Assembly: GCA_025174535.1 (NCBI GenBank)
Contig: JALBUN010000017.1
Coordinates: 1 to 64,000 of the forward strand
Length of the DNA: 64,000 bases
Direction: 5' to 3'
Origin: Cantharellus purpuraceus
Taxonomy: Eukaryota > Basidiomycota > Agaricomycetes > Cantharellales > Hydnaceae
Made by a program: the position numbers and the translations under genes. Positions within the stretch are counted from its first letter, which is position 1. Each line of letters begins with the position of its first letter. Below are positions 34,628 to 58,396 of the stretch, in pieces. Under the pieces are notes generated by a model. It saw only the letters and a list, made by a program, of their open reading frames with translations, was not told the DNA's origin and made no database searches.

Positions 34628-37600
34628 TTAGGTACCATCCCCTTCACGTTGTGGATCTTCTTCGCTAAGTTTACCGCAAACCTTTTCAACGAGCTCTATT
34701 AGACGGTTTGTTGCTTCACTCTCGTTCCATTGTCTCCTTGCATATTCAAGAAGCGATGGAAGAGCTGCACGGCACTCCTCAGTAGAAATATCCCATATCT
34801 TGGTCCCGCACCTCGCTCCAAAACCGTCGAGGTCAAACATGTAGCGCCAGGCTCGCAGAACAAGTGGCCAAATTGAATCTGCCTGAATTGCCGTAGACAA
34901 CGGGTGTTCTTCGCCCGCTGCATCAATGGTTGCAAAAATATGCGCCACAGGTACAGCATAGATGTCAAACTCATCATCTCCCTGGGAAGACAGTGTTTTT
35001 GCGATCATAAGACAGTTGTTAAAATGGGCATTCTGCTGAAGTTGAGGATGCCAAGTGAGCCCTTGGGAAAGGGTGCAAAGTGACCTGAGGTATGCAATAT
35101 AATAGAAGATGGCAATGACATTTATTAATGGATTATCATCGGTGGGTGCCTGTGGAGCAAATATGAGGAATGCTGAAGCCAGTGCTTGTGAGAACTGTTC
35201 TCGGAGTGAATCATCGTCTCGACCCATTGAAGTCACTGTTGACCGAATGGCACAAGCCGCATGCAGGGCTCCAGTCTCACCCTTGCCCATGAAACGCATC
35301 AACATGTCAACGTAGCGGCGCCTTTGGTCCAGGGTACTTGGCGAACCCCACAACCGCTCCAACAGCCGAAAAGTGTCACTAATTGTGTCATTATCTGTAC
35401 CGTCACAAATGCGTAGCTGGTAATCCACCAGCAGGTCAAACTGCTCCTGGGCGTGAAGCTGACTTTCATGCCAGGGCAGGAATCGAGCAAGGATACGAAT
35501 GAGACTGACGACACTCTTGGATCGGACTTGATCATCGCCCAGTGTGTCTAAATCATCCTGGAGTAAAGAACAACAAAGTTTGAGAGCCCGCTTGTACCCG
35601 CGACGATCGCTGAAATGGAAGTTGTTTGTGTCAAAGTATGCAAGTAGTCGGTAAATTAGCCTCAGTGCGTTCTCGTGCCATCTACGACCATGAATCTCAT
35701 CAAGAAGCACAGCTAGCGTGTGATTCATAACTGCCTGTTGAAGCGTTCCAATGGCTTGACTGCAAAAGCGTAAAGTCAACAGCTCATGCAATGGATTATT
35801 GAAAATGTCTATCTTCTTACCTGTTGTCAAGCCTCGCCAAACCCCGTCGATCGATCTGAATGTCAACTAGCATGCCTGCCAGTAATATGCAGTCCGCTAC
35901 CAGACGGCGGGGAGAGAGGGGCGACTCGGAGTCAAGGCAGATGCCAATGAATTTAATCACAAAGGTGTCAAATTTCGGGTCATGTTCACCTTTATGCAGG
36001 CGGTAGGTGAACATGTGTGCCATCCACATCCGGTCTGACAAAGGGAGGGACATAATATCCAGACTGTCAGGGGATTGATCTACCGCAGAGGAAACAACGA
36101 GAAAGCCTGGATCATCTGGGACCATGTGCCAGTACGTGCCACGGATATAATCACCTTCAAAGGCTATGTCACCGTCTGTGAAATATCAAACGGATCGTCC
36201 AGATTTTGTTCAACACAAAGTCGCCATATTGCTTTCAGGTATGCCATCGCACCTGCCCGTATGAGGGGAAGGACCTGCTGATTAGGATCAAAGCACGCAT
36301 AGAAGCCACTTTTCAATCGGCCCACGAGCATGTCTGGCTCCTCGACCTTGGTTGGCCATTCAATTTCCAATACCATTCCAGCTGCAGCAGCTATAACGTC
36401 TGTATCCGTAGATATCTCGATTACCCATTTGACGGCATGGGAGGGCACTAGTGTATCTACTTTGGCGTGTGATTCCATGGAAGTCAAGTTCAACACTGTC
36501 GGCGACGCTTCTAACCGCTCCAAAGGTATACGTGTTTCTGGCTCATCGTTCAATGATTGGACTTGACACCGAGTGGAGGGTCTTGGGGAGAGATACGTGA
36601 CAAAGGGTGTGAGCGAGTTGACGATCAGATCTGCTGCAGCGCATAACGCATGTTTTGAGGCCTCGTACAAGAAGTCCACGAAGCCTGCCCAGGTCCTTGG
36701 CCGCTGTTTCCACTTCTCTTGGAACACATGTCGAATGTTCCTTAGCGCCACCTTTTGAATTGTGCTTCGAACGGCCTTTCGATAGGGAGCCATGAATGTA
36801 AAGACACGCTGAAGTACCGTCGACACTGGCGTCTGGAACGGACAGTCGGGTGATTTCAACGACGACACCACAGTGAATAAATAGAATATAAATCCAAACG
36901 CCATTGTCGCCATAATCACACTTGCAACCGTACGTTGTAGAATCCAGATGTTTGCCGCCAGAGCAATGCCAAAGAAGAGCAGCGATATCTGGAGTAAGAT
37001 CGGAAGAGTGGCGATGATGGTGTTGAAATGCCAAGTTGCCAGTGCGTCCAGCTTCTTCTGCCTTTGTTGGCCGCGTTCGTGCAAGGAGCCTTGTCCAAAA
37101 CGCATTGTTTTGAAGTGGCCTAGCCATTGTTTTCCTAGAACTGCACCGAATGCAGCCAATAGACTGCTCGAGAGGCTCGTGTATGCCAGCGTCTGGATCC
37201 ATATTGTTGTAGAACTCGGTCCAGTCCAGACGGGAAGGGATGCCTGTTGCGCAGGAAATGTAGAGCTGTTGATGGTGTTGATTAATACCATCAAGAGGGA
37301 GTTGGTGGTACCTGGTGTGGTTTTAAGTGATGGTCGACGCAAGAATGGAGCACATACGAATATTAGCAGTACATCTAGACCACCGTTGTGTCTCTCGATC
37401 AGCTCGTCATCATGCTGTTTAGCCACCCGTTCATATGTAGACCAGAAACGAGAGGGGGCGTCCTTTCTGGTGCGTTCAAATATGTCTGATTCGTACATGG
37501 TGTCGAGAATGTCTTGGAGGATCGCTTCAGATCTGGTCCCCAACCATCAGAGTGCAGGTAAATCAAAAAGCGTGGACACTCACTTTGTCGTTGGTTTGTC

Positions 37601-48920: not shown

Positions 48921-49007
48921 CATTCAATGCTTCCCTTAGCCTACTAGATGCCATGTCTGCCAATTGGCAGGGAGGTCAACAATTGATTCCTGACAGTCAC
49001 TGCCTGA

Positions 49008-49345
49008 TTATTGATCCAGATCAGCAAATAACATCTCTGTATCAAATGGTCTTGCTTGGTGACCAATGTATGCTATCTTCTGAGCCAGCCGCATGCAGAT
49101 TGAGTAACATACATTTTACAAGGATAGTGTGCAATACCAGTACATACTGGATAAAGGCAATCTTCAGCAATAGACTTGATACTCTACTGAGCCTACCAAA
49201 TGGGGGCATTATGTCTAAGAGAGGCTGCACTTTGGGTTGTTAGCTTATAACTGGATATATGACAGCAATACTGGCATAAAAATGACAATGTTCTGGAGGA
49301 AGCCATCTGACATACTAGGTGGGGGGCATAATAGAGAACCCCTAT
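49008..49345 (-). pseudogene. DUF6533 paralog 6, 3' part (exons 11-14), decayed
   Basis: On the minus strand it keeps the family exon 11 start (VLYYAPHL), remnants of exons 12 and 13, and exon 14 (VLHTILVKCMLLNLHAA, then HWSP) up to a stop at 49008. Splice sites and several residues are changed. The 5' half of this gene lies 7.7 kb away at 57072-58396, beyond the inserted element; the equivalent of exons 7-10 (about 600 bp) is gone. Confidence 0.75.
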
Positions 49346-49912
49346 GACGCTTATTCAGAAATACAACAAATACGTATGTACAACCTATTTTCCTCAAATT
49401 TTATACAATACACTTCAATTCAAACTTATTTTCATATTTCAACATGATTCTCAAATTTTACACAATATACTAGATTAAAACATATTTTGATATTTTGGCA
49501 TAATTCTCAAAAATAATTCTTTTTTTCCTGATTTAGTGGTGGCAACTCTCTTGAAGGAACATCCAAATATCATTGATTCTTTCTTATACAATACTTGTAA
49601 CATAATTTGAACTATCTTTAATCCCCACCTGGTATTTGTATATCTAAATACCCTATATAATACCAATTATATTAATACATACATTCCTATTATATCCATG
49701 TAAATAATTATGTTCATCTCAACCAAATGTCTTATCTTTAAAAGTTTATTAAAATATAGAATATATGTTTATATTTATGAAAATTTCACACATCCAAAAT
49801 CTTTTAAGATATCCAAATTGTAACTCCCTGGCTTTATGTATCATTGAAATTCTGATGTATATCTCATATACATCAGAATATTGTATACTGACATGATTCC
49901 GAACAAGCGTCT
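49346..49912. repeat. Terminal direct repeat R-left
   Basis: 567 bp with mini inverted ends GACGCTT...AAGCGTC. Near its right end (49849-49879) a perfect 14-bp stem (ATTCTGATGTATAT and its complement) encloses CTC. A 63-codon minus-strand frame occurs in both copies but has no domain. Confidence 0.88.
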
Positions 49913-49990
49913 AGGGAGGTCATTTTAAAAACAAAAATCATCACCTTATATCATCAACAAGCTTCTTTCTCCATAGATTTAGACATGCCA

Positions 49991-50488
49991 TTATGAATTC
50001 TTATCTTCATTGGTATGTCTGGACACTGTCCAACACAGCAAAGCCAATAGTATACCAATACTAGTTATGTAGATCATGTGCACTGTACGGCCAAGATATA
50101 GTTTCTGCCTATTTATATCTGGGCCTGGCTGTCTAACAAACGCCTGATTCACATGTGTGGTTATAATGTGTGCATATCCAGAGGTTGGATCAGAACCACT
50201 TACAAATCTGTTGGTTTTATTCAGAAAACCTGCAAATTCTGCTACAAAAATAGGATCACTTTCATTATAGCCTATTTTATCAGGTTGTAGACCAAGAAAT
50301 ACATATTTGATATGAGGATACTTTGAAAGCTGGAACACTTCACCTTCAGCATATGAACGGTCCAGATACTGCCCAAAGGGGTACCAGTCACACGTTGTAC
50401 AATTAGCTAGCCGGTGTGGATTGCTGTGAAAAGGCTTTTGGTAAAACTGTTGATTGAGACGCTGTTTCAGTAATGGATCAGTCTCCAT
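49991..50488 (-). CDS. Unknown protein with C-terminal membrane anchor (element ORF 1)
   Basis: 165 aa with no family I recognise. The first ~125 residues are soluble-looking, with CTTCDWYPFGQYL near the N terminus and a Gly/Pro/Asp-containing middle; residues ~140-156 (ITSIGILLALLCWTV) form one transmembrane helix followed by a short polar tail, so it may be tail-anchored. It is the first gene inside R-left and is transcribed toward it. Composition (AT-rich, CpG-poor) matches the rest of the element, unlike host genes nearby. It may be a cargo gene. Confidence 0.55.
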   Translation of the reverse strand: METDPLLKQRLNQQFYQKPFHSNPHRLANCTTCDWYPFGQYLDRSYAEGEVFQLSKYPHIKYVFLGLQPDKIGYNESDPIFVAEFAGFLNKTNRFVSGSDPTSGYAHIITTHVNQAFVRQPGPDINRQKLYLGRTVHMIYITSIGILLALLCWTVSRHTNEDKNS

Positions 50489-50670
50489 AGATACCTATAA
50501 GTATAAAACATACAAATATTCAATTTTATTCTGGGAAAAAAATTTACAGTTGAATGTAGCATAGGTATACAATAATACTATTACTATTGTCTTTCCAATA
50601 CTCTTTAATACATTCTGTAGATTTAAAGCTTGATGTTGCTTCCCAAGTTTTCTCTGCATAACATTTCCAT

Positions 50671-51741
50671 TTAACTAAATATTCTACGTACTTTCCTTTT
50701 TCTTTGCCTTATTATTTGTTCTACTTCATTTTCAGTCTCATAATGCATCTCCACATCATACTCACATCTTTCTAATAGTCGTTGTTGAGATAGAGTCATC
50801 TTGTCAACATCTTCTGCTCTTTCCAGTAATGATCTGGGTGGCTCAATATCTGGGTCCTCTTCCTCAGGGTAATCAAAATATTGTTCACACCATTTTTCAT
50901 GATAAGGGGATGGTTTGATCTTACGTAGTTCTACAAATTTCTTAATATTCCATAATAGACATGCTACCTTTAATTCCAGATTAAAGACAGCAGGATTTGT
51001 AGTTCTAATAGATCTCTTATTATCAAATTTTTCAAACAATATTGCAAACCCTCCAAAGAATGCTTCTACTGTTGAACGAAAGGCACCAAACTTCTTATTA
51101 AAAATCTTTTCTTCAGGTTTAAGTTCAACATTTTTTGGCTTCCGAAAAGGATAAAAGAAGTTCTTAGGCTTTAATATACTTGCCTTTACTACTTCTGGAA
51201 TAGCAGATGGATAAGCTCCATCAAAGCCTATCTGATCATTCTTATCTATTTTATTCCATACAGCCATCTCTACAAACATTTTTGCATCAGGATTTAGTTT
51301 ACATGCCAATGAAGGTGAGGTGAATAGAACCATTTGATTGATGTCAATGCATACTTGAGTACGAAATCCTGCCTTTTTAAATTTATGTGAGTACCCCTCT
51401 TCAGATGTCGATCCAATCAAAATTCCTCTTGTATCATGACCATCAAGAAGTAATGTCACTGATTCCATTTTTGGAGGATTCTTTATAAGAGCTGATAATA
51501 TCCTTATTATTATATTTGAGAACATTGTACGCAGTGAATCAGTAACTTGTTTATCTAGATCAAAGTTAAGATGATGCAGACGACCATAAAATTCCTTATG
51601 AACATCATAAAAGCTACTTGATGGCATGAAATTTCCTATTTCTTCATAAGTAGGACCTTTGAGTAGATGATATAGTACTAACAAGCCTTTTTCTATCTCT
51701 CTATAAGGTGTAGAATGTTCTTCAACTGAAAACAATACCAC
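50671..51741 (-). CDS. DDE-superfamily nuclease-like protein (DDE_Tnp_4/Harbinger type)
   Basis: About 356 aa. The order of blocks suits the DDE_Tnp_4 fold of Harbinger-type transposases: LLLDGHDTR (first Asp, residues ~97-105), KAGFRTQVCID, then IGFDGAYPS (second Asp) and FNKKFGAFRSTVEAFFGGF (Glu of the third motif, ~240). A C-terminal basic tail (RQRKRKVRR) could bind DNA. The frame opens with a GTG codon just before a possible 3' splice site (TTTTCAG at ~51729), so an upstream exon is likely and the true N terminus is unknown. It is the best candidate for the enzyme that moves the element. Only the TA-flanked R ends are of a kind such an enzyme might recognise. Confidence 0.65.
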   Translation of the reverse strand: MVLFSVEEHSTPYREIEKGLLVLYHLLKGPTYEEIGNFMPSSSFYDVHKEFYGRLHHLNFDLDKQVTDSLRTMFSNIIIRILSALIKNPPKMESVTLLLDGHDTRGILIGSTSEEGYSHKFKKAGFRTQVCIDINQMVLFTSPSLACKLNPDAKMFVEMAVWNKIDKNDQIGFDGAYPSAIPEVVKASILKPKNFFYPFRKPKNVELKPEEKIFNKKFGAFRSTVEAFFGGFAILFEKFDNKRSIRTTNPAVFNLELKVACLLWNIKKFVELRKIKPSPYHEKWCEQYFDYPEEEDPDIEPPRSLLERAEDVDKMTLSQQRLLERCEYDVEMHYETENEVEQIIRQRKRKVRRIFS

Positions 51742-51782
51742 AAGAAAGAAAAATACTGGTATTGGTCCAAGCTTGTTATATA

Positions 51783-52019
51783 CTACTTTTTTACATCATC
51801 CATGTCATTCATATCTTTTAGTTTTGTTCTATGATATTTTTTGTGTTCTAAGACAGGCCACTTTGTGTATAGAAAATTCCAATGATTGTCCATCAACTTA
51901 TTATATGCTCTGTCCCTTTGATCATTCCACATTTTAAGTTGCTGAAGCTCTTTTTCTTCTTTCTCTTTTTGCTCTTTCTCTTTTTGCTCCTTTGTGCGTT
52001 TTTGCTGGTCTGAGGGCAT
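51783..52019 (-). CDS. Small Lys/Glu-rich protein (element ORF 3)
   Basis: 78 aa, starting with a strongly charged helix made of KEQKEKE-type repeats, then a Trp/Tyr-rich part (NHWNFLYTKWPVLEH). It ends 40 bp before the DDE frame on the same strand and could be its first exon, though I found no splice that keeps phase; alternatively it is a DNA-binding partner, as Harbinger elements usually have a second protein of Myb type. No Myb motif is evident. Confidence 0.45.
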   Translation of the reverse strand: MPSDQQKRTKEQKEKEQKEKEEKELQQLKMWNDQRDRAYNKLMDNHWNFLYTKWPVLEHKKYHRTKLKDMNDMDDVKK

Positions 52020-52115
52020 TTTGACTAAGATACTCTTATATTACAGTAAAACAAAAATATGTTCATTTTTTTGATAATTGAATTTTAAATTAAATAATAT
52101 TTATTCTATGAAGCT

Positions 52116-52766
52116 ATGTTGTCTGTCTCTAAGCAAGTTGTTCGTAAAATATCTACTGTCTTTGTTAAAAAAGAACCAGAGGATGATGAAAATCCTTTGT
52201 ATATAGACTCTGACACCATCTACATAAAATTCAGATTAAGAAATCCCCCAAAGGACTTCTTTCCAGCTGGATCGGTTTCTCAGGAAAGAGATAAAACACC
52301 AGAAGCGCTGTACAATAAGATGATTGAAAAGGGCAATGAAATAAGTAATTCAACCTGGATTCAACAAAATCATTGTATGTCAAGTCTGCAAACCATGCAA
52401 CAGGATAATCTGCCTAGTTGTAATATTTCTATTGCTAGAGAAACTGGCAAGAAGTGTGATATTTCTATTGCTGGGGAAACTTGTAAGAACTGTGATGTGT
52501 ATAACAATTTGGTTACATCAATGGTTGTTGCATTGAAACAACAGCAGAGAGTTTTCAAGAAAAGTAAAATCACAATCTATGGTATGATCATAACTAAGGA
52601 TGGTAGGTTAAAATTATATGAAACCACCAATAACAATCAGGGTGTTTCAATTGTTGTATATCCTTCCTCTGGATACAGCATAGAAGCTCAGTTTGAAGAG
52701 TGTTCTAATGCTATTGACATTATATTCCAAAGTATAAGAAATCAGATGTTCAAAGAATCCTCATAA
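52116..52766 (+). CDS. Unknown 216-aa protein (element ORF 4)
   Basis: The only long plus-strand frame of the element core. It starts about 100 bp from the divergent ORF 3, with an AT-rich shared promoter region between. The N terminus is basic, then acidic (KKEPEDDENPLY); two related cysteine-containing segments (CNISIARETGKKC and CDISIAGETCKNC) look like an internal duplication at ~residues 103-126. The C-terminal half alternates strands and helices. No domain recognised. Confidence 0.5.
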   Translation: MLSVSKQVVRKISTVFVKKEPEDDENPLYIDSDTIYIKFRLRNPPKDFFPAGSVSQERDKTPEALYNKMIEKGNEISNSTWIQQNHCMSSLQTMQQDNLPSCNISIARETGKKCDISIAGETCKNCDVYNNLVTSMVVALKQQQRVFKKSKITIYGMIITKDGRLKLYETTNNNQGVSIVVYPSSGYSIEAQFEECSNAIDIIFQSIRNQMFKESS

Positions 52767-52852
52767 GGAGTTGATTTAAAAGTCCTAGTTTCTACACTCA
52801 CAACATTTTTCATCTATTTTCACTTGGATAATTTCAAGATTTGAACTTTTGT

Positions 52853-53008
52853 TCACACAACAATAAGTACCATTAGTATCATGATGAGTATTTTTGAATG
52901 TTCAGAGCTCTTAGGACATTTAATATCCTTACAATCTGTAACTACAGATGTAGTAGTTATATGATTGCACTTCCAAGTAATTTGAATTTTTTCACTATCA
53001 CCACACAT
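52853..53008 (-). CDS. Possible 51-aa cysteine-containing membrane peptide
   Basis: A short minus-strand frame with five cysteines before a hydrophobic C-terminal segment (ILIMILMVLIVV). An alternative frame continues with further cysteines, so a frame slip or intron is possible. Listed because all neighbouring frames of the element look coding. Confidence 0.3.
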   Translation of the reverse strand: MCGDSEKIQITWKCNHITTTSVVTDCKDIKCPKSSEHSKILIMILMVLIVV

Positions 53009-53059
53009 GCCTTCATTTGAGTGAATAAAAATATTGCATATTCACTTATCTGATTTATC

Positions 53060-53239
53060 TTATACTTGTTGTAGTGCACGTAGTGGTAGCTGAATCTCAT
53101 TGTCATCATAAGTAACAGTTATTAGCAAAGTGTCATCTGACAAAGTGCCAGTTACTAATGTAACAATACCTGTCACTGTCATTTGTGTTCTTGCATTGAT
53201 AAATGATACCTTATCACCAATCTCGGGTATATTCAACAT
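53060..53239 (-). CDS. 59-aa beta-rich small protein (element)
   Basis: A complete minus-strand frame from ATG 53239 to TAA 53060. Its alternating hydrophobic pattern (MLNIPEIGDKVSFINA, then VTVTYD-like strands) suggests a small beta barrel of SH3/KOW type, but no family is certain. It lies in line with the two short genes upstream. Confidence 0.45.
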   Translation of the reverse strand: MLNIPEIGDKVSFINARTQMTVTGIVTLVTGTLSDDTLLITVTYDDNEIQLPLRALQQV

Positions 53240-53277
53240 GGTGTCTCTGGTTATTATATATTAATTTTCAAAACTCA

Positions 53278-53523
53278 TTATTTCTCATCTAATTTCCTAT
53301 CAAGTATATCTACAAACTTCTTAAATGCTTCAAAACACTGTAGAACATTCTTTCTACTATTAATATGTTTCATACCTGTTACTGTTACAGGGAAACAACA
53401 CCTTACATTTGTTATCACTTCTGAAAACAACCCTTCTGTGATAGCATGATCAAGCTCTCTTGTAACAGTTACTAGGTAAAACTGGGGGACTTTTCTCGAT
53501 GTTTGAATGCAAGGTATTGTCAT
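53278..53523 (-). CDS. Unknown 81-aa protein (element)
   Basis: Minus-strand frame with a strand-rich N-terminal half (QFYLVTVTRELDHAI) and a helical C terminus (FEAFKKFVDILDRKLDE). Spacing to the genes on both sides is 20-40 bp, as in a compact gene row. No family recognised. Confidence 0.45.
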   Translation of the reverse strand: MTIPCIQTSRKVPQFYLVTVTRELDHAITEGLFSEVITNVRCCFPVTVTGMKHINSRKNVLQCFEAFKKFVDILDRKLDEK

Positions 53524-53545
53524 TTCCTCTAAAGCACTTTTTCCC

Positions 53546-53770
53546 TTATTCTTCCTTATCTAAGTATGTAAAAAATTTTCTTGAAGACTCCTTTAAACAT
53601 TTCACATCATCTTTTTTGTAATCAAAACTGAGGATCTCATCATCAGTATCTAAAGTAATATCTCTAAAATCTGTCTCAAAAAACTGTTTAGTCCATTGTG
53701 TGTCAACCATTATACCATAATCCCAAAGATCATGAGAACTCCAATCATTGCACTTCTTATCTTTACCCAT
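53546..53770 (-). CDS. Unknown acidic 74-aa protein (element)
   Basis: Minus-strand frame rich in Asp, Lys and Trp (NDWSSHDLWDYGIMVDTQW, then DTDDEILSFDY). Followed 22 bp later by the 81-aa frame on the same strand. No family recognised. Confidence 0.45.
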   Translation of the reverse strand: MGKDKKCNDWSSHDLWDYGIMVDTQWTKQFFETDFRDITLDTDDEILSFDYKKDDVKCLKESSRKFFTYLDKEE

Positions 53771-54039
53771 GATGTCAATAAAGAAGGATATATAAAATTT
53801 ATTTACTAGATATGTGCATAGTTCTGAAGAGCAGAATGTCCATATTTTTATCTAATATTTATAAATTGAATTATATATATTTTCTAAAGTTGTCAATAGC
53901 CAGATGCATGCACTCGTTCTGAATACTACAACAAAGTCCCATACAGAATTCCCTGTCCTTTCATCTATCATTCTTCTACCAGTTCCTTGTTTCCTATCTT
54001 GCCAGTCTTTCATTCCAAATTCTTTGCTGCATAGCTAAA

Positions 54040-54896
54040 TAGGTGTACCAGCCGATTGGATATTATCATATCATGGTAATGACATCGGATGGAAGGTCAC
54101 CTTGTCAGGAGCAGTTTGATCACATTATCAAAGGACAGCCTTTTGGCTGTGAGGGTTGATAATGATGCACTTACTGAGCAGACAGTAGGTGAGACTTTGC
54201 AGCGGCATGGTGTACCAGATAATTGAATCGTTGTCCTTGAGCAGCCCGATGATGTCACTCGGTGTCGGTTCGCTTATGGAATAGATCCTATAAGCCTGCG
54301 CGCAATGGTCCTAGCAAGCAGACGGTGTGTAACACAGTTGTTCAGCACTCCAAAGATCAATCAGGGCGAGGGGTACGTAACAGGGAAGTGGGATAGTGCT
54401 CTGTGGTTGGATGAGGATGGGAGCAAAAGGTCGGTCCCGATGGCTGATCGTGCTCTGTGACTGGATGACAATGCGGAGCCCGGTTGGGAGGTACGCGAAA
54501 GCTGGTTTCAGGAGAATCAACCTCTCGGTGGCGGAGGGAAATCTGATCATTGAACCAAGGTGTTTTACCTCAGTGTAGAGATGATGGATTGTGATGTAGA
54601 GTGTAGACTTAGAGCTTGGACTTTGACTTTAGAGCGTTGGCTGAAAACTTGTTTTTGGATTCCAAAGGCGAAAACTAGCGCCCTTTTATATACAAATTCC
54701 CAGGGCACAACGACACAATATGAGGAGCAAATGATGCAAGAAATGCTGATCAAGCCAGCTGACGAAGCGTGTGAAGTTGAGCTACTAAAGGGGAAATCAT
54801 GGAGAAATGAAACGACAGATAGGGACATCATTAGACTGCTCATGGACAGCCATTCACTCCAAGGTGACCTTGTATCCTACGTCTTCGGAGGCTTAC
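54040..54896. mobile_element. CpG-rich insert inside the element, with an LTR-like end
   Basis: Base composition changes abruptly: CpG-containing words are frequent here but nearly absent on both sides. On the minus strand 54896-54561 starts TGTAAGCC, has TATAAAAGGG near 54693-54684 and ends AAAACA, then continues CCTTGGTTCAATG, reminiscent of an LTR followed by a primer-binding site. A ~57-bp near-repeat (GTGCTCTGTG...) occurs at 54393 and 54450. The ORFs on both strands here look like by-products. It is probably a retrotransposon fragment nested in the element, just beyond the stop of the coiled-coil gene. Confidence 0.4.
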
Positions 54897-54897
54897 A

Positions 54898-55716
54898 TTA
54901 CTGGGTTCTCCCTCTACATCTTTTTCTTGAACTAGGAATTTGAGATTGATCAGAGTCTGAATCAGATCGTTCCTTAGACCTTTTTTCTTGATGCCTTGAA
55001 CTAGGAGTTTGAGATCGTTCATTAGACCTTTTTTCTTGATGCCTTAAACCTTGAGTCATTCCTTGCTTCCATGTTTGAAAATTAATCCTATTACCATCTA
55101 CGTCATATGATGACATTTCATTCTTTCTAGTATATATTGTAGATAGTTTTCTAGGCTCACCATTTATGAATAATTCCATTCTATTTAGTCTACAAGACTG
55201 ATCTGAGTCTATAAGTATATAGTCTACACCTCTTTTCACTATCTTAAATGTCACCTTTCTGGTACCATTTTCCTGTAACCTTGTTACCTCCTGTTCTTGT
55301 TTTCCAGCCCAGTGATTCATATCAAATTTCCAGTCAACAATCTCAGATATTATTGCTTTATATTTATCACCCTGTTTCTGAAGTTTATTAATGTCTGTTC
55401 CAAGTTCCACTACAGTATCATCTGTTTCTACAATCCACTCATGCACTTCAGATTTCCATTCCACAATGTCTGATATTGTTGCAATACATCTATTAACCTG
55501 TTTCTGAAGTTTATGAATATCTGTTCTATAGTCCAATATAAGATTCTCTGCATTATGTGTATTGACCTGTTGATGAATATCTGTTCCATGGTCTGATATT
55601 GTGGCAACACACCTATTAACCTGTCTCTGAAGTTTATGAATATCTGTTCCAAATCCTGATACAATATCATTCATTTCACTCATCCATTCATCTAAATTCT
55701 CTTTCCTGTCTGTCAA
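54898..55716 (-). CDS. Coiled-coil protein with internal repeats and Arg/Ser tail (element)
   Basis: 272 aa on the minus strand. Residues ~20-130 contain four related ~34-residue units built on GTDIHKLQRQVNRCVATIS, with heptad spacing typical of coiled coils. A basic/polar middle follows (TRKVTFKIVKRGVDYILID), then a tail with two RHQEKRS(N/K)ERS units and a run of Ser/Asp. Such a tail often binds RNA or DNA. The frame 55970-55722, also coiled coil, ends 5 bp before this one and is probably the same protein's N-terminal exon or a frame-shifted part. No family recognised. Confidence 0.55.
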   Translation of the reverse strand: MTDRKENLDEWMSEMNDIVSGFGTDIHKLQRQVNRCVATISDHGTDIHQQVNTHNAENLILDYRTDIHKLQKQVNRCIATISDIVEWKSEVHEWIVETDDTVVELGTDINKLQKQGDKYKAIISEIVDWKFDMNHWAGKQEQEVTRLQENGTRKVTFKIVKRGVDYILIDSDQSCRLNRMELFINGEPRKLSTIYTRKNEMSSYDVDGNRINFQTWKQGMTQGLRHQEKRSNERSQTPSSRHQEKRSKERSDSDSDQSQIPSSRKRCRGRTQ

Positions 55717-55721
55717 AGTAG

Positions 55722-55970
55722 TTATAATTGTATTTTTTCCTCAACCTGTTTCTTAAGCACCTGAATTTCCTGACTCTGGGAATTAACCTGTTGTTCAAGC
55801 ATAGTGATCTGCCTATCCTTTTCACTCATCCAAGACTTGACATTTATAAGATCAGATATTAATTCATCTTTTACTTCCATTTGACTTGCCATAGCTTTTA
55901 TCAGTGCATCATTGTCACTTATCCAGCCTTTGATTGCTTTTATATCTTCAAAGATTTGTGGCATTTTCAA
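55722..55970 (-). CDS. Coiled-coil segment, probable N-terminal part of the 54898-55716 protein
   Basis: 82 codons, starting MKMPQIFEDIKAIKGW and continuing as one long heptad-rich helix (KDRQITMLEQQVNSQSQEIQ). It would extend the downstream coiled coil, but no splice keeping phase was found, so it may be a separate protein, a frameshift or an unseen short exon. Confidence 0.45.
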   Translation of the reverse strand: MKMPQIFEDIKAIKGWISDNDALIKAMASQMEVKDELISDLINVKSWMSEKDRQITMLEQQVNSQSQEIQVLKKQVEEKIQL

Positions 55971-56111
55971 ATCCCTCTCTGCTTATAAAACAGAAATGAA
56001 AAAACATAATAATCATTTTTTTCTGAACATTTGATATTTTGTATAGGCAGTAGATATATACATCTTGCTTTCTTAATAAAATGATTATTATGTTTTTATG
56101 TTATAAGCATT

Positions 56112-56438
56112 ATGAAGATGCTCTCTTTTATGCTTCAATGCAAATTAGAGTTTGATAGAAGAGTTAATGATTGGTATATATCTCGGATAGGATCCCTCCA
56201 TGATTTGTTTCTGAGGTAAGTTCCTTTATAAATATCAAGATTCCAATCACTGACTTTATACAGATGTACTGATGGCACACTTCTGGAACAGAAATTAACA
56301 GAGTTATATACTAGTATGGAGCAGGATCATTATTTTCCACCACTTTGGATGGAAAATCTGATGGTATTGCACCCTAAAGTACGAGGGATAGTCATACAGT
56401 CTTATGTTAGAACAAGATTATCTACCACTATGCCCTAA
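56112..56438 (+). CDS. Spliced 92-aa unknown protein (element)
   Basis: Two exons (56112-56215 and 56264-56438) join across a 48-bp intron with GTAAGT donor and TATACAG acceptor; neither half is long enough alone to attract notice. The protein is helical (KLEFDRRVNDWYISRIGSL, then MVLHPKVRGIVIQSY). A canonical intron shows that the element is expressed as nuclear eukaryotic DNA. It faces R-right. No family recognised. Confidence 0.55.
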
Positions 56439-56504
56439 CTAAGTTACTTTGTTTTAAAAGTAGCTTCACTGCATTAAAGGTGTTTGTTTCCAAGACTTTC
56501 CTAA

Positions 56505-57071
56505 GACGCTTATTCAGAAATACAACAAATACGTATGTACAACCTATTTTCCTCAAATTTTATACAATACACTTCAATTCAAACTTATTTTCATATTTCA
56601 ACATGATTCTCAAATTTTACACAATATACTAGATTAAAACATATTTTGATATTTTGGCATAATTCTCAAAAATAATTCTTTTTTTCCTGATTTAGTGGTG
56701 GCAACTCTCTTGAAGGAACATCCAAATATCATTGATTCTTTCTTATACAATACTTGTAACATAATTTGAACTATCTTTAATCCCCACCTGGTATTTGTAT
56801 ATCTAAATACCCTATATAATACCAATTATATTAATACATACATTCCTATTATATCCATGTAAATAATTATGTTCATCTCAACCAAATGTCTTATCTTTAA
56901 AAGTTTATTAAAATATAGAATATATGTTTATATTTATGAAAATTTCACACATCCGAAATCTTTTAAGATATCCAAATTGTAACTCCCTGGCTTTATGTAT
57001 CATTGAAATTCTGATGTATATCTCATATACATCAGAATATTGTATACTGACATGATTCCGAACAAGCGTCT
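56505..57071. repeat. Terminal direct repeat R-right
   Basis: Same 567 bp as R-left, at a constant offset of 7159 bp with no indel; one substitution seen (A at 49794, G at 56953, within ACATCCRAAATC). Hairpin copy at 57008-57038. Same flanking CCTA on the left and TA on the right. Confidence 0.88.
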
Positions 57072-58396
57072 AACACTAACATCCCTACAAGCAACTGCAT
57101 GTCAGACTAAGTAGCAGAAAAGATGCAAGTGTGGCTCATAAAAGTGATATTAGAGGATGCCATACCTCCTGTGTGGTTTGACGCTTCAGTCTATATCTGA
57201 AATGAAGCACTGCAATGAAGGATTGCAAAGAGACAGATGGTTCATGAAGACAATTATGGCACTACCTGAGAATGCCAGATACATGGTCAGAATGTATAGT
57301 ACTTTTCCTATGTCAAGAATCTATTCTAAAGGTGTGAAAGAAGTGAAGAGGCGTGAAAAGGCATTAAGAGGTATTAAAAGGTGTAGAAAATATAGTTATT
57401 GGATGGGAACAGGGTATTAATTTTCTTGTGAGCCCTCCTTTCATCTTCAGGGGGGGAAAATTCCATTCAAAAGGGACCATATTATGACGATTAACACTCA
57501 TCATAAGTCCCATAAGATGTGGATAAAATCCCATCAAGTTATAAAAGTTTTTCCCATATGATATCACTTATTATAAGTATCTGCATCATTTCTTTCATCA
57601 TATGTTTCAATCTTACTAAAAGGCTTTCTTATCATGTGATTGCCAAATTGTATATTAGCTACAACTATGTACAAGTATCGATCATCAGATTCATTATGTT
57701 TATCCCTTCCAAGTTGTAAATCAAACAACTTATGTCATTTTTCAGTCGTTCCTGGAATAACTCCTAAATGATCTAACAACTTCAAATATTTTTGCACATT
57801 CTATTAGAATATTGCAACAGCTATCACTATCTCAAATTAAGAACGTTTTGGACCACAGGATCCATCTCTATTGAACATACATTCACTTAAAGTGACATCA
57901 TCCCCCACTGCCTCTTAAATCATCTGTAGCAGGCGCAATTTCTAACCGTATATTCCGATATTTGGTAACATAATTATACTGAATGACACCTCTCCATCGA
58001 CCCCGCATATATCTGCCTCCTCGCAGTAATTGATCCTCTATTCAAAATCTACTTTGCCACCATCCCTCACCTTCATTTCACACTCACCCACATACACCTG
58101 CAATCTATCCCTCATCTTTTCCTAACATCCTAGACTCCAGGGGGAAGACTGATTTAAAGACCCATCATCAGGCCGTGATCATATATCTGGTACTAATAGC
58201 ATGTGTAGGACATACCGACATCATGATGCTGCACACTGGTGCTCATAGTCAGCTTTGCGGCACAACGATGGCATGGTCCTTCACACCATGAAAGTAATAG
58301 ACTTGAACGGTGATCAACCACAAAACACGGGTGAGGTAGGAAACCAGGATCACAGAGGAGTGTTTGTTGAGAATTGTCTCTTCTGACAGAATGTTC
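57072..58396 (-). pseudogene. DUF6533 paralog 6, 5' part (exons 1-6), decayed and twice interrupted
   Basis: Minus-strand exon 1 (MNILSEETILNKH) starts at 58396. The splice site before micro-exon 2 is lost, exon 4 begins IYDHGLMMGL but then hits a stop and lacks the LVWPA segment, and the rest of exon 4 (GKVLYILTMYLAFSGSA-like) appears only after an 817-bp LTR insertion. Exon 6 is cut after its first codons by R-right at 57071. This copy cannot make the family protein. Confidence 0.78.
57311..58127. mobile_element. Solo LTR with 5-bp target duplication
   Basis: The 817-bp insert begins TGTCAAGAATC and ends TTTCCTAACA, and is flanked on both sides by TCCTA (57306-57310 and 58128-58132). Removing it with one TCCTA restores the TTTCCTAGACTCCA reading of exon 4 found in the intact paralogs. 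No coding region is inside, so it is a solo LTR. It is not similar to LTR A or B. Confidence 0.85.

Follow-up and report, generated by a model that had tools for sequence, protein, structure and literature searches.

The first 64,000 nucleotides of contig JALBUN010000017.1 of the fungus Cantharellus purpuraceus (assembly GCA_025174535.1; this whole stretch is called the window below) contain a multigene mobile element in which two long direct repeats (R) enclose an internal region (INT). With a probability of roughly 0.7, we read it as a composite-like DNA transposon of the PIF/Harbinger type, a unit R-INT-R that would spread via a circle or concatemer of R-INT. Central to this reading is the observation, statistical in nature and made for most copies flanked by a target duplication, that both Rs of an insertion usually descend from a single template R. 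As far as we could find, the layout was previously described only for the KolobokP elements of animals, of which the present element is a Harbinger-type, multigene, fungal counterpart.

In the window the 5' R is located at 49346..49911 (+) and the 3' R at 56505..57070 (+), around an INT of ~6.6 kb (49912..56504) that is delimited by the constant R junctions found across the genome. A preliminary description of this AT-rich block had reported 567-bp direct repeats with one difference, each with short inverted ends and TA flanks, together with a DDE_Tnp_4-like open reading frame (ORF), a repeat-built coiled-coil ORF and several small ORFs. Most of these features are indeed present. The two Rs match over their full length with one internal mismatch and each ends in GACGCTT / AAGCGTC (the perfect inversion is 7 bp only). 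Their length is 566 bp, because R stops at AAGCGTC where the flanking duplication starts without a T (ATA, AAA, CAA); the base counted as the 567th already opens that duplication. The TA flanks were not quite right either: the family rule is a 3-bp duplication, and the window copy, with TAT on the left (49343..49345) and TAA on the right (57071..57073), has mismatched triplets. The GC content is 28-36% in the 1-kb intervals of 49001-58000, except for 54001-55000 (46%), and 38-58% elsewhere in the window. ORFs occupy both strands of INT, the transposase among them, and no ORF of at least 80 amino acids (aa) is located within R. How many genes INT has, about ten by the preliminary description, depends on the gene models; eight ORFs of at least 74 aa were compared with Pfam and seven with NCBIfam.

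The idea of a mobile element with long direct terminal repeats is upheld. A chance origin of the block is remote, since the genome (40.15 Mb, 50 contigs) has dozens of copies of both R and INT. There are 59 left ends of INT and the same number of right ends (at most 2 mismatches), and R adjoins 58/59 and 59/59 of them, respectively (junction patterns, at most 3 mismatches). The sole exception, a left end on contig C23 with interrupted R-like sequence, is part of a degenerate older copy. Pairing by script gave 52 left/right pairs, 50 of which span 6.0-7.3 kb; one pair of 12.4 kb carries an insert, and one of 9.6 kb on C24 combines the left end of an older copy with the right end of a younger one. 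Internal genes like those of the window copy, bounded by R, thus recur at other loci, contrary to the refuting outcome foreseen at the outset, in which R would occur only as single elements with no common internal genes. Right ends of R number 527 (at most 2 mismatches), of which roughly 400 (by subtraction, not by direct count) are unattached to INT, and no paired INT adjoins 14 of the best 40 R matches. There are both solo Rs and tandem arrays of the form R-INT-R-INT-R; in the arrays (L040 on C44, L039 on C38, and C45:1749773) adjacent INTs have one R in common, at four such junctions. Two pairs of copies, L011/L018 and L035/C15:76170, have common flanks and are probably duplicated loci.

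Identical 3-bp flanks are seen in 29 of 38 full elements (including the pair L011 and L018 with the same flanks); pairing flanks across elements gives agreement 259 times out of 1406. The nine remaining elements comprise two in tandem arrays (L039, L040), L035, whose end was misplaced by the script and whose TCG flanks are common to C15:76170, and six true mismatches, among them the window copy. Solo Rs carry the 3-bp duplication in 8/9 cases (nine Rs at eight loci; L029 and one R of L030 have common flanks). The 37 sites (29 full, 8 solo) yield the target consensus C-TWA-G, with TAA 11 times, TTA 11 times (together 22/37), TAT four times and ATA three times; the last eight sites fall into seven further kinds. 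This extended palindrome resembles PIF/Harbinger targets; that of maize PIF, CWCTTAGWG, is similar. One element is located within a multi-copy repeat, and its joined flanks match 40 scored places, each covering at least bases 5-234 of 240. At the two loci read among these the site is intact with a single TAT, so that the empty sites sought since the preliminary description exist at paralogous loci of the same genome. Overall, anatomy and duplications establish integration of the transposase type at the outer R ends.

To compare the two Rs within an element, 38 pairs were available, and 28 were left after dropping six flank-mismatched elements, two in tandem arrays and two duplicates (L018, L035). 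In these 28 the Rs differ at a mean of 1.8 and a median of 1 positions, against 11.6 (5' versus 5'), 12.1 (3' versus 3') and 11.9 (5' versus 3') between elements, and none of 2000 random re-pairings was as low as the observed value. With a T-run and the last columns omitted, 14/28 pairs show no difference and the remainder between 1 and 6, as against 1, 4, 5, 6, 12 and 12 in the six flank-mismatched elements (p 0.001). Across 27 informative columns, 19/756 cells are discordant; 500 shuffles gave 232 on average and never fewer than 181. Moreover, several elements show a combination of R variants unseen in any other element, and such mosaics are common to both of their Rs. Differences of about 1.8 within against about 12 between elements, together with the shared mosaics, lead us to derive both Rs, in most insertions, from one template R. 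The near-identity of the ends had been taken as the mark of a recent arrival, but recency alone is insufficient, as the pairs are near-identical in most duplication-flanked copies, those with a divergent type of R included.

The enzyme of the element is a Harbinger-type DDE transposase at 50671..52020 (-), the extent being based on correspondence with copy L014. The window copy at first suggested an intron, an idea that we abandoned because some other copies have an uninterrupted ORF of 449 aa across this position, from which it follows that the window copy is broken by one in-frame stop (TGA). The ORF is shortened in 15/20 fetched copies; for six of these the best match is identical, at 318 residues. 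PF13359 (DDE_Tnp_4) is matched by 42/42 members of sequence set A2 at E 0.01, and the family's own transposase (L014) scores 23.0 bits, just below the gathering score of 24.8. After the ORF follows a chromodomain-like tail, read by eye at 50560..50690 (-), which is in another frame than the transposase, likewise in other copies where it was matched; transposase relatives elsewhere carry the chromodomain in frame. Reverse transcriptase, protease and RNase H gave no Pfam match in the eight INT ORFs, and for these the early statement of a DNA-transposon enzyme without reverse transcriptase holds. Myb/SANT gave no Pfam match in the same eight ORFs, where a divergent version might escape. Comparison of the transposase with the PDB by sequence gave unrelated matches only (E near 1); in a separate listing of 50 entries no Harbinger structure was included, which excludes nothing. 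In IMG/VR three stretches fit the transposase pattern, none of them confirmed.

The earlier suggestion of a composite transposon built from two short elements bounded by terminal inverted repeats was essentially right. Based on these results, we propose a cycle in which the INT-encoded transposase presumably acts on the R ends and would join the element to a C-TWA-G target with a 3-bp duplication. Recombination between the two Rs could then free an R-INT circle and leave a solo R with its duplication behind. Integration of a circle or concatemer of R-INT would create a new R-INT-R with two fresh copies of one R, which might proceed either by replicative joining of a single R (a cointegrate) or, starting from a homogeneous multimer, by excision of a single R-INT-R. 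A cycle through such a circle or concatemer is in line with three features: the template common to both Rs, tandem units that have one R between them, and solo Rs that carry duplications. If a circle joined a solo R by homologous recombination alone, different and often discordant Rs would be paired; the data consequently favour a step that duplicates one R. One conceivable version, speculative and in our view unlikely, is copy-in of a circular, perhaps self-replicating R-INT. Here the transposase would join both ends of a single R, replication through R would give two identical Rs (compare bacterial cointegrates), and recombination between Rs would return a circle and a solo R; on this view INT, orphan genes included, might represent a plasmid- or virus-like replicon. 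We prefer to see the solo Rs as recombination products rather than as the result of R moving alone. R as a freely excising miniature inverted-repeat transposable element (MITE) is unsupported, INT ends without R being nearly nil (0/59 right; 1/59 left, in the degenerate older copy).

A simpler view is that of an ordinary composite transposon moving by cut-and-paste, where MITE-like Rs flank a cargo, the outer ends move R-INT-R as a whole and gene conversion now and then keeps the Rs similar. R has its own inverted ends and carries 3-bp duplications on eight of the nine solo copies. Some details also argue against a strict reset of the Rs. Three columns show discordance in the same direction in two or three elements, which suggests that some R pairs are inherited; furthermore, in the T-run (R alignment columns 174-175) the 3' R is one base short in seven elements (one element shows the reverse) and one base long in two. 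The T-run difference is either inherited or an artefact of polishing at a 3' R distant from unique flank. Nonetheless, the within-element difference is about one sixth of the between-element mean and mosaics are found in both Rs. Since flank-mismatched elements retain discordant Rs, gene conversion appears too slow to erase R differences. In addition, excision of single Rs should leave some INT ends without R, whereas the junction is wanting at 0/59 right and 1/59 left ends. Cut-and-paste alone therefore seems possible but rather unlikely.

Direct repeats that are seemingly reset at insertion, combined with solo repeats with target duplications, are a hallmark of long terminal repeat (LTR) retrotransposons, and it might be argued that the element is one, or was copied by reverse transcription with the enzyme supplied in trans. 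We rejected this as very improbable given the ORF content (reverse transcriptase, protease and RNase H unmatched in the eight ORFs), ends of GACGCTT/AAGCGTC rather than TG..CA, ORFs on both strands (ill suited to a full-length genomic transcript), a DDE_Tnp_4 transposase and a target that fits Harbinger. The element might also be a circular replicon, similar to a plasmid or virus, that uses R for integration and has small genes for replication or particles. Several points suit this reading: the ORFs are compact and on both strands, the two that were searched (g1 and g3, see below) are without detectable relatives, g1 is stop-free in 63/63 loci, the homogeneity of R fits a single-R circle, and tandem arrays are present. 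However, a replication or capsid domain was matched neither in the eight ORFs (Pfam) nor in the seven (NCBIfam), no transposase relative was confirmed in IMG/VR and no extrachromosomal form was observed, which makes this reading improbable. Finally, the copies with common flanks (L011/L018; L035/C15:76170) could point to an assembly artefact or a host segmental duplication. For the family as a whole this is refuted and has a negligible probability, as most of the 38 copies differ in their flanks, each with a 3-bp duplication of its own, and empty sites were found.

Returning to the transposon reading, the element is provisionally classified as Harbinger-type (PIF/Harbinger, PHIS) by its enzyme and duplication; in architecture it is KolobokP-like without being a KolobokP member. 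KolobokP belongs to the Kolobok superfamily, is reported from animals only, has repeats of about 450 or 660 bp includes autonomous oyster families of 4.0-4.7 kb and has a His-Me finger nuclease in INT (Kojima and Bao 2022, PMC9587614). As described there, it shares with the fungal element the layout LTDR-INT-LTDR (LTDR, long terminal direct repeat) with short inverted ends on each LTDR, an internal DDD/E transposase, solo repeats, tandem multimers and short target duplications. The fungal element differs in being Harbinger-type, mostly about 7.1-8.4 kb long and equipped with several ORFs without known relatives. A His-Me finger nuclease gave no match in the eight (Pfam) or seven (NCBIfam) ORFs. 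Copies with one LTDR are frequent in one KolobokP family (40 INT-LTDR and 6 LTDR-INT beside 90 monomers; another family has 1 and 1 beside 118; PMC9587614), whereas the fungal element is nearly without R-less INT ends. Instead of the TTAA-type duplication of Kolobok transposases we found a 3-bp duplication at C-TWA-G, along with DDE_Tnp_4 matches; the C/DxxH signature was not sought. A circle with one LTDR is discussed by the KolobokP authors, who leave the pathway open (PMC9587614).

PIF/Harbinger elements resemble the fungal element in their DDE_Tnp_4 transposase and 3-bp TTA/TAA duplication (PMC2213677; PMC12730594). In plants their terminal inverted repeats are 14-25 bp with G(N)5GTT (PMC2213677), a motif that is not exactly present at the R ends with their 7-bp inversion. 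The consulted parts of these sources describe terminal inverted repeats and do not mention long direct ones such as those of the fungal element. A Myb/SANT protein is often, though not in all lineages, part of Harbinger (PMC12730594); the fungal element lacks a match to it in the eight ORFs and its transposase relatives have a chromodomain. The bacterial IS26/IS6 pseudo-composite transposons and translocatable units are similar in having direct repeats around a cargo, a circle with one repeat and tandem arrays (PMC11102541; PMC9587614), but their transposase is encoded in the repeat and not, as here, in INT. LTR retrotransposons are alike in behaviour rather than membership: near-identical direct terminal repeats (28 duplication-flanked pairs here) and solo repeats with duplications are shared, while the tested ORFs without reverse transcriptase, the other kind of inverted ends and the ORFs on both strands set the fungal element apart. 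Among the open-licence papers listed (titles and starts of abstracts; Repbase was outside the search), none describes a Harbinger element whose ends are long direct repeats. Within that scope, the claim that the element is undescribed holds for the Harbinger-type fungal version, whereas the architecture was known from KolobokP (PMC9587614). That the layout turns up again outside animals, and with an enzyme of a different type, suggests that it is a recurrent way of life and not a single accident. The upkeep of the composite structure, raised but left unsettled by the KolobokP authors (PMC9587614), becomes testable in a fungus, where young copies are numerous, the target duplication is clear and the template of each insertion can be told from its R haplotype. 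For annotation it should be noted that structure-based tools could call such elements LTR elements.

Three degenerate older copies (L041, L042, L043) form a separate subfamily. Compared to the young family, their R is ~70-77% identical (longer matches) and their transposase 78-79%, against 90-94% for g1 and 95-99% for g3 to g5 where present (one or two copies). The joint divergence of R and transposase, with the rest close, fits an exchange of an R-plus-transposase cassette, which these few degenerate copies may reflect. Decay contributes to the transposase divergence: the ratio of nonsynonymous to synonymous substitutions (dN/dS) is 0.85-0.90 and each copy has one stop. No intact R pair of the older subfamily was found on C35, where we looked.

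Among the other INT genes, g1 (49991..50488, -; 165 aa) has a hydrophobic C-terminal stretch, as judged by eye. It is complete in 20/20 fetched copies and stop-free in 63/63 genome loci (the window and 62 others, six of which match in part only), also where the neighbouring transposase is broken, as it often is. Its dN/dS against the older subfamily is 0.20-0.33. No g1 loci clearly outside the family were seen in a check that left out unpaired ones (e.g. C10:373035, C23:2773929). The ORF g3 (52116..52766, +; 216 aa) is complete in 18/20 fetched copies and its predicted structure is unusable (mean pLDDT 34.5); for g1 and g3, the two ORFs searched, the protein collection held no detectable relatives. 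Completeness is 19/20 for g4 (53278..53523, -; 81 aa) and 5/20 for g5 (about 74 aa; 53546..53770, -, placed by eye via correspondence with L014). The repeat-built coiled-coil ORF (54898..55716, -) has a serine/arginine-rich tail, a length-variable repeat, and is complete in 12/20 copies; a second coiled-coil ORF (55722..55970, -; 82 aa) is complete in 8/20, the other 12 being three residues short. NCBIfam gave two weak coiled-coil matches only, far under the cut-off, for the seven ORFs, and known replication or capsid domains were absent from these and, with Pfam, from the eight. Within subfamily A the corresponding polymorphism ratio (pN/pS) is 1.11 for g1, 0.74 for the transposase, 0.39 for g3, 0.81 for g4 and 1.64 for the coiled-coil ORF, values that are uninformative on constraint.

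Close to the right end of R is a palindrome with 14-bp arms and a 3-base loop (49849..49879 and 57008-57038; z -3.1 for 93 bases folded), for which a role in binding, resolution or termination is conceivable. The GC-richer block within INT (54030..54900) has 647 first-look candidates in the genome, and 37 of the 40 scored matches lie within paired INTs of the family; it is possibly captured sequence. Elsewhere in the window, a gene for a DUF6535 protein is located at 36167-37546 (-); it is compatible with an Agaricomycete as host and, together with the relatives of the element, points to a fungus. A 63-bp fragment at 1253-1315 has 84% identity to the right end of R and is perhaps the remnant of an old solo R.

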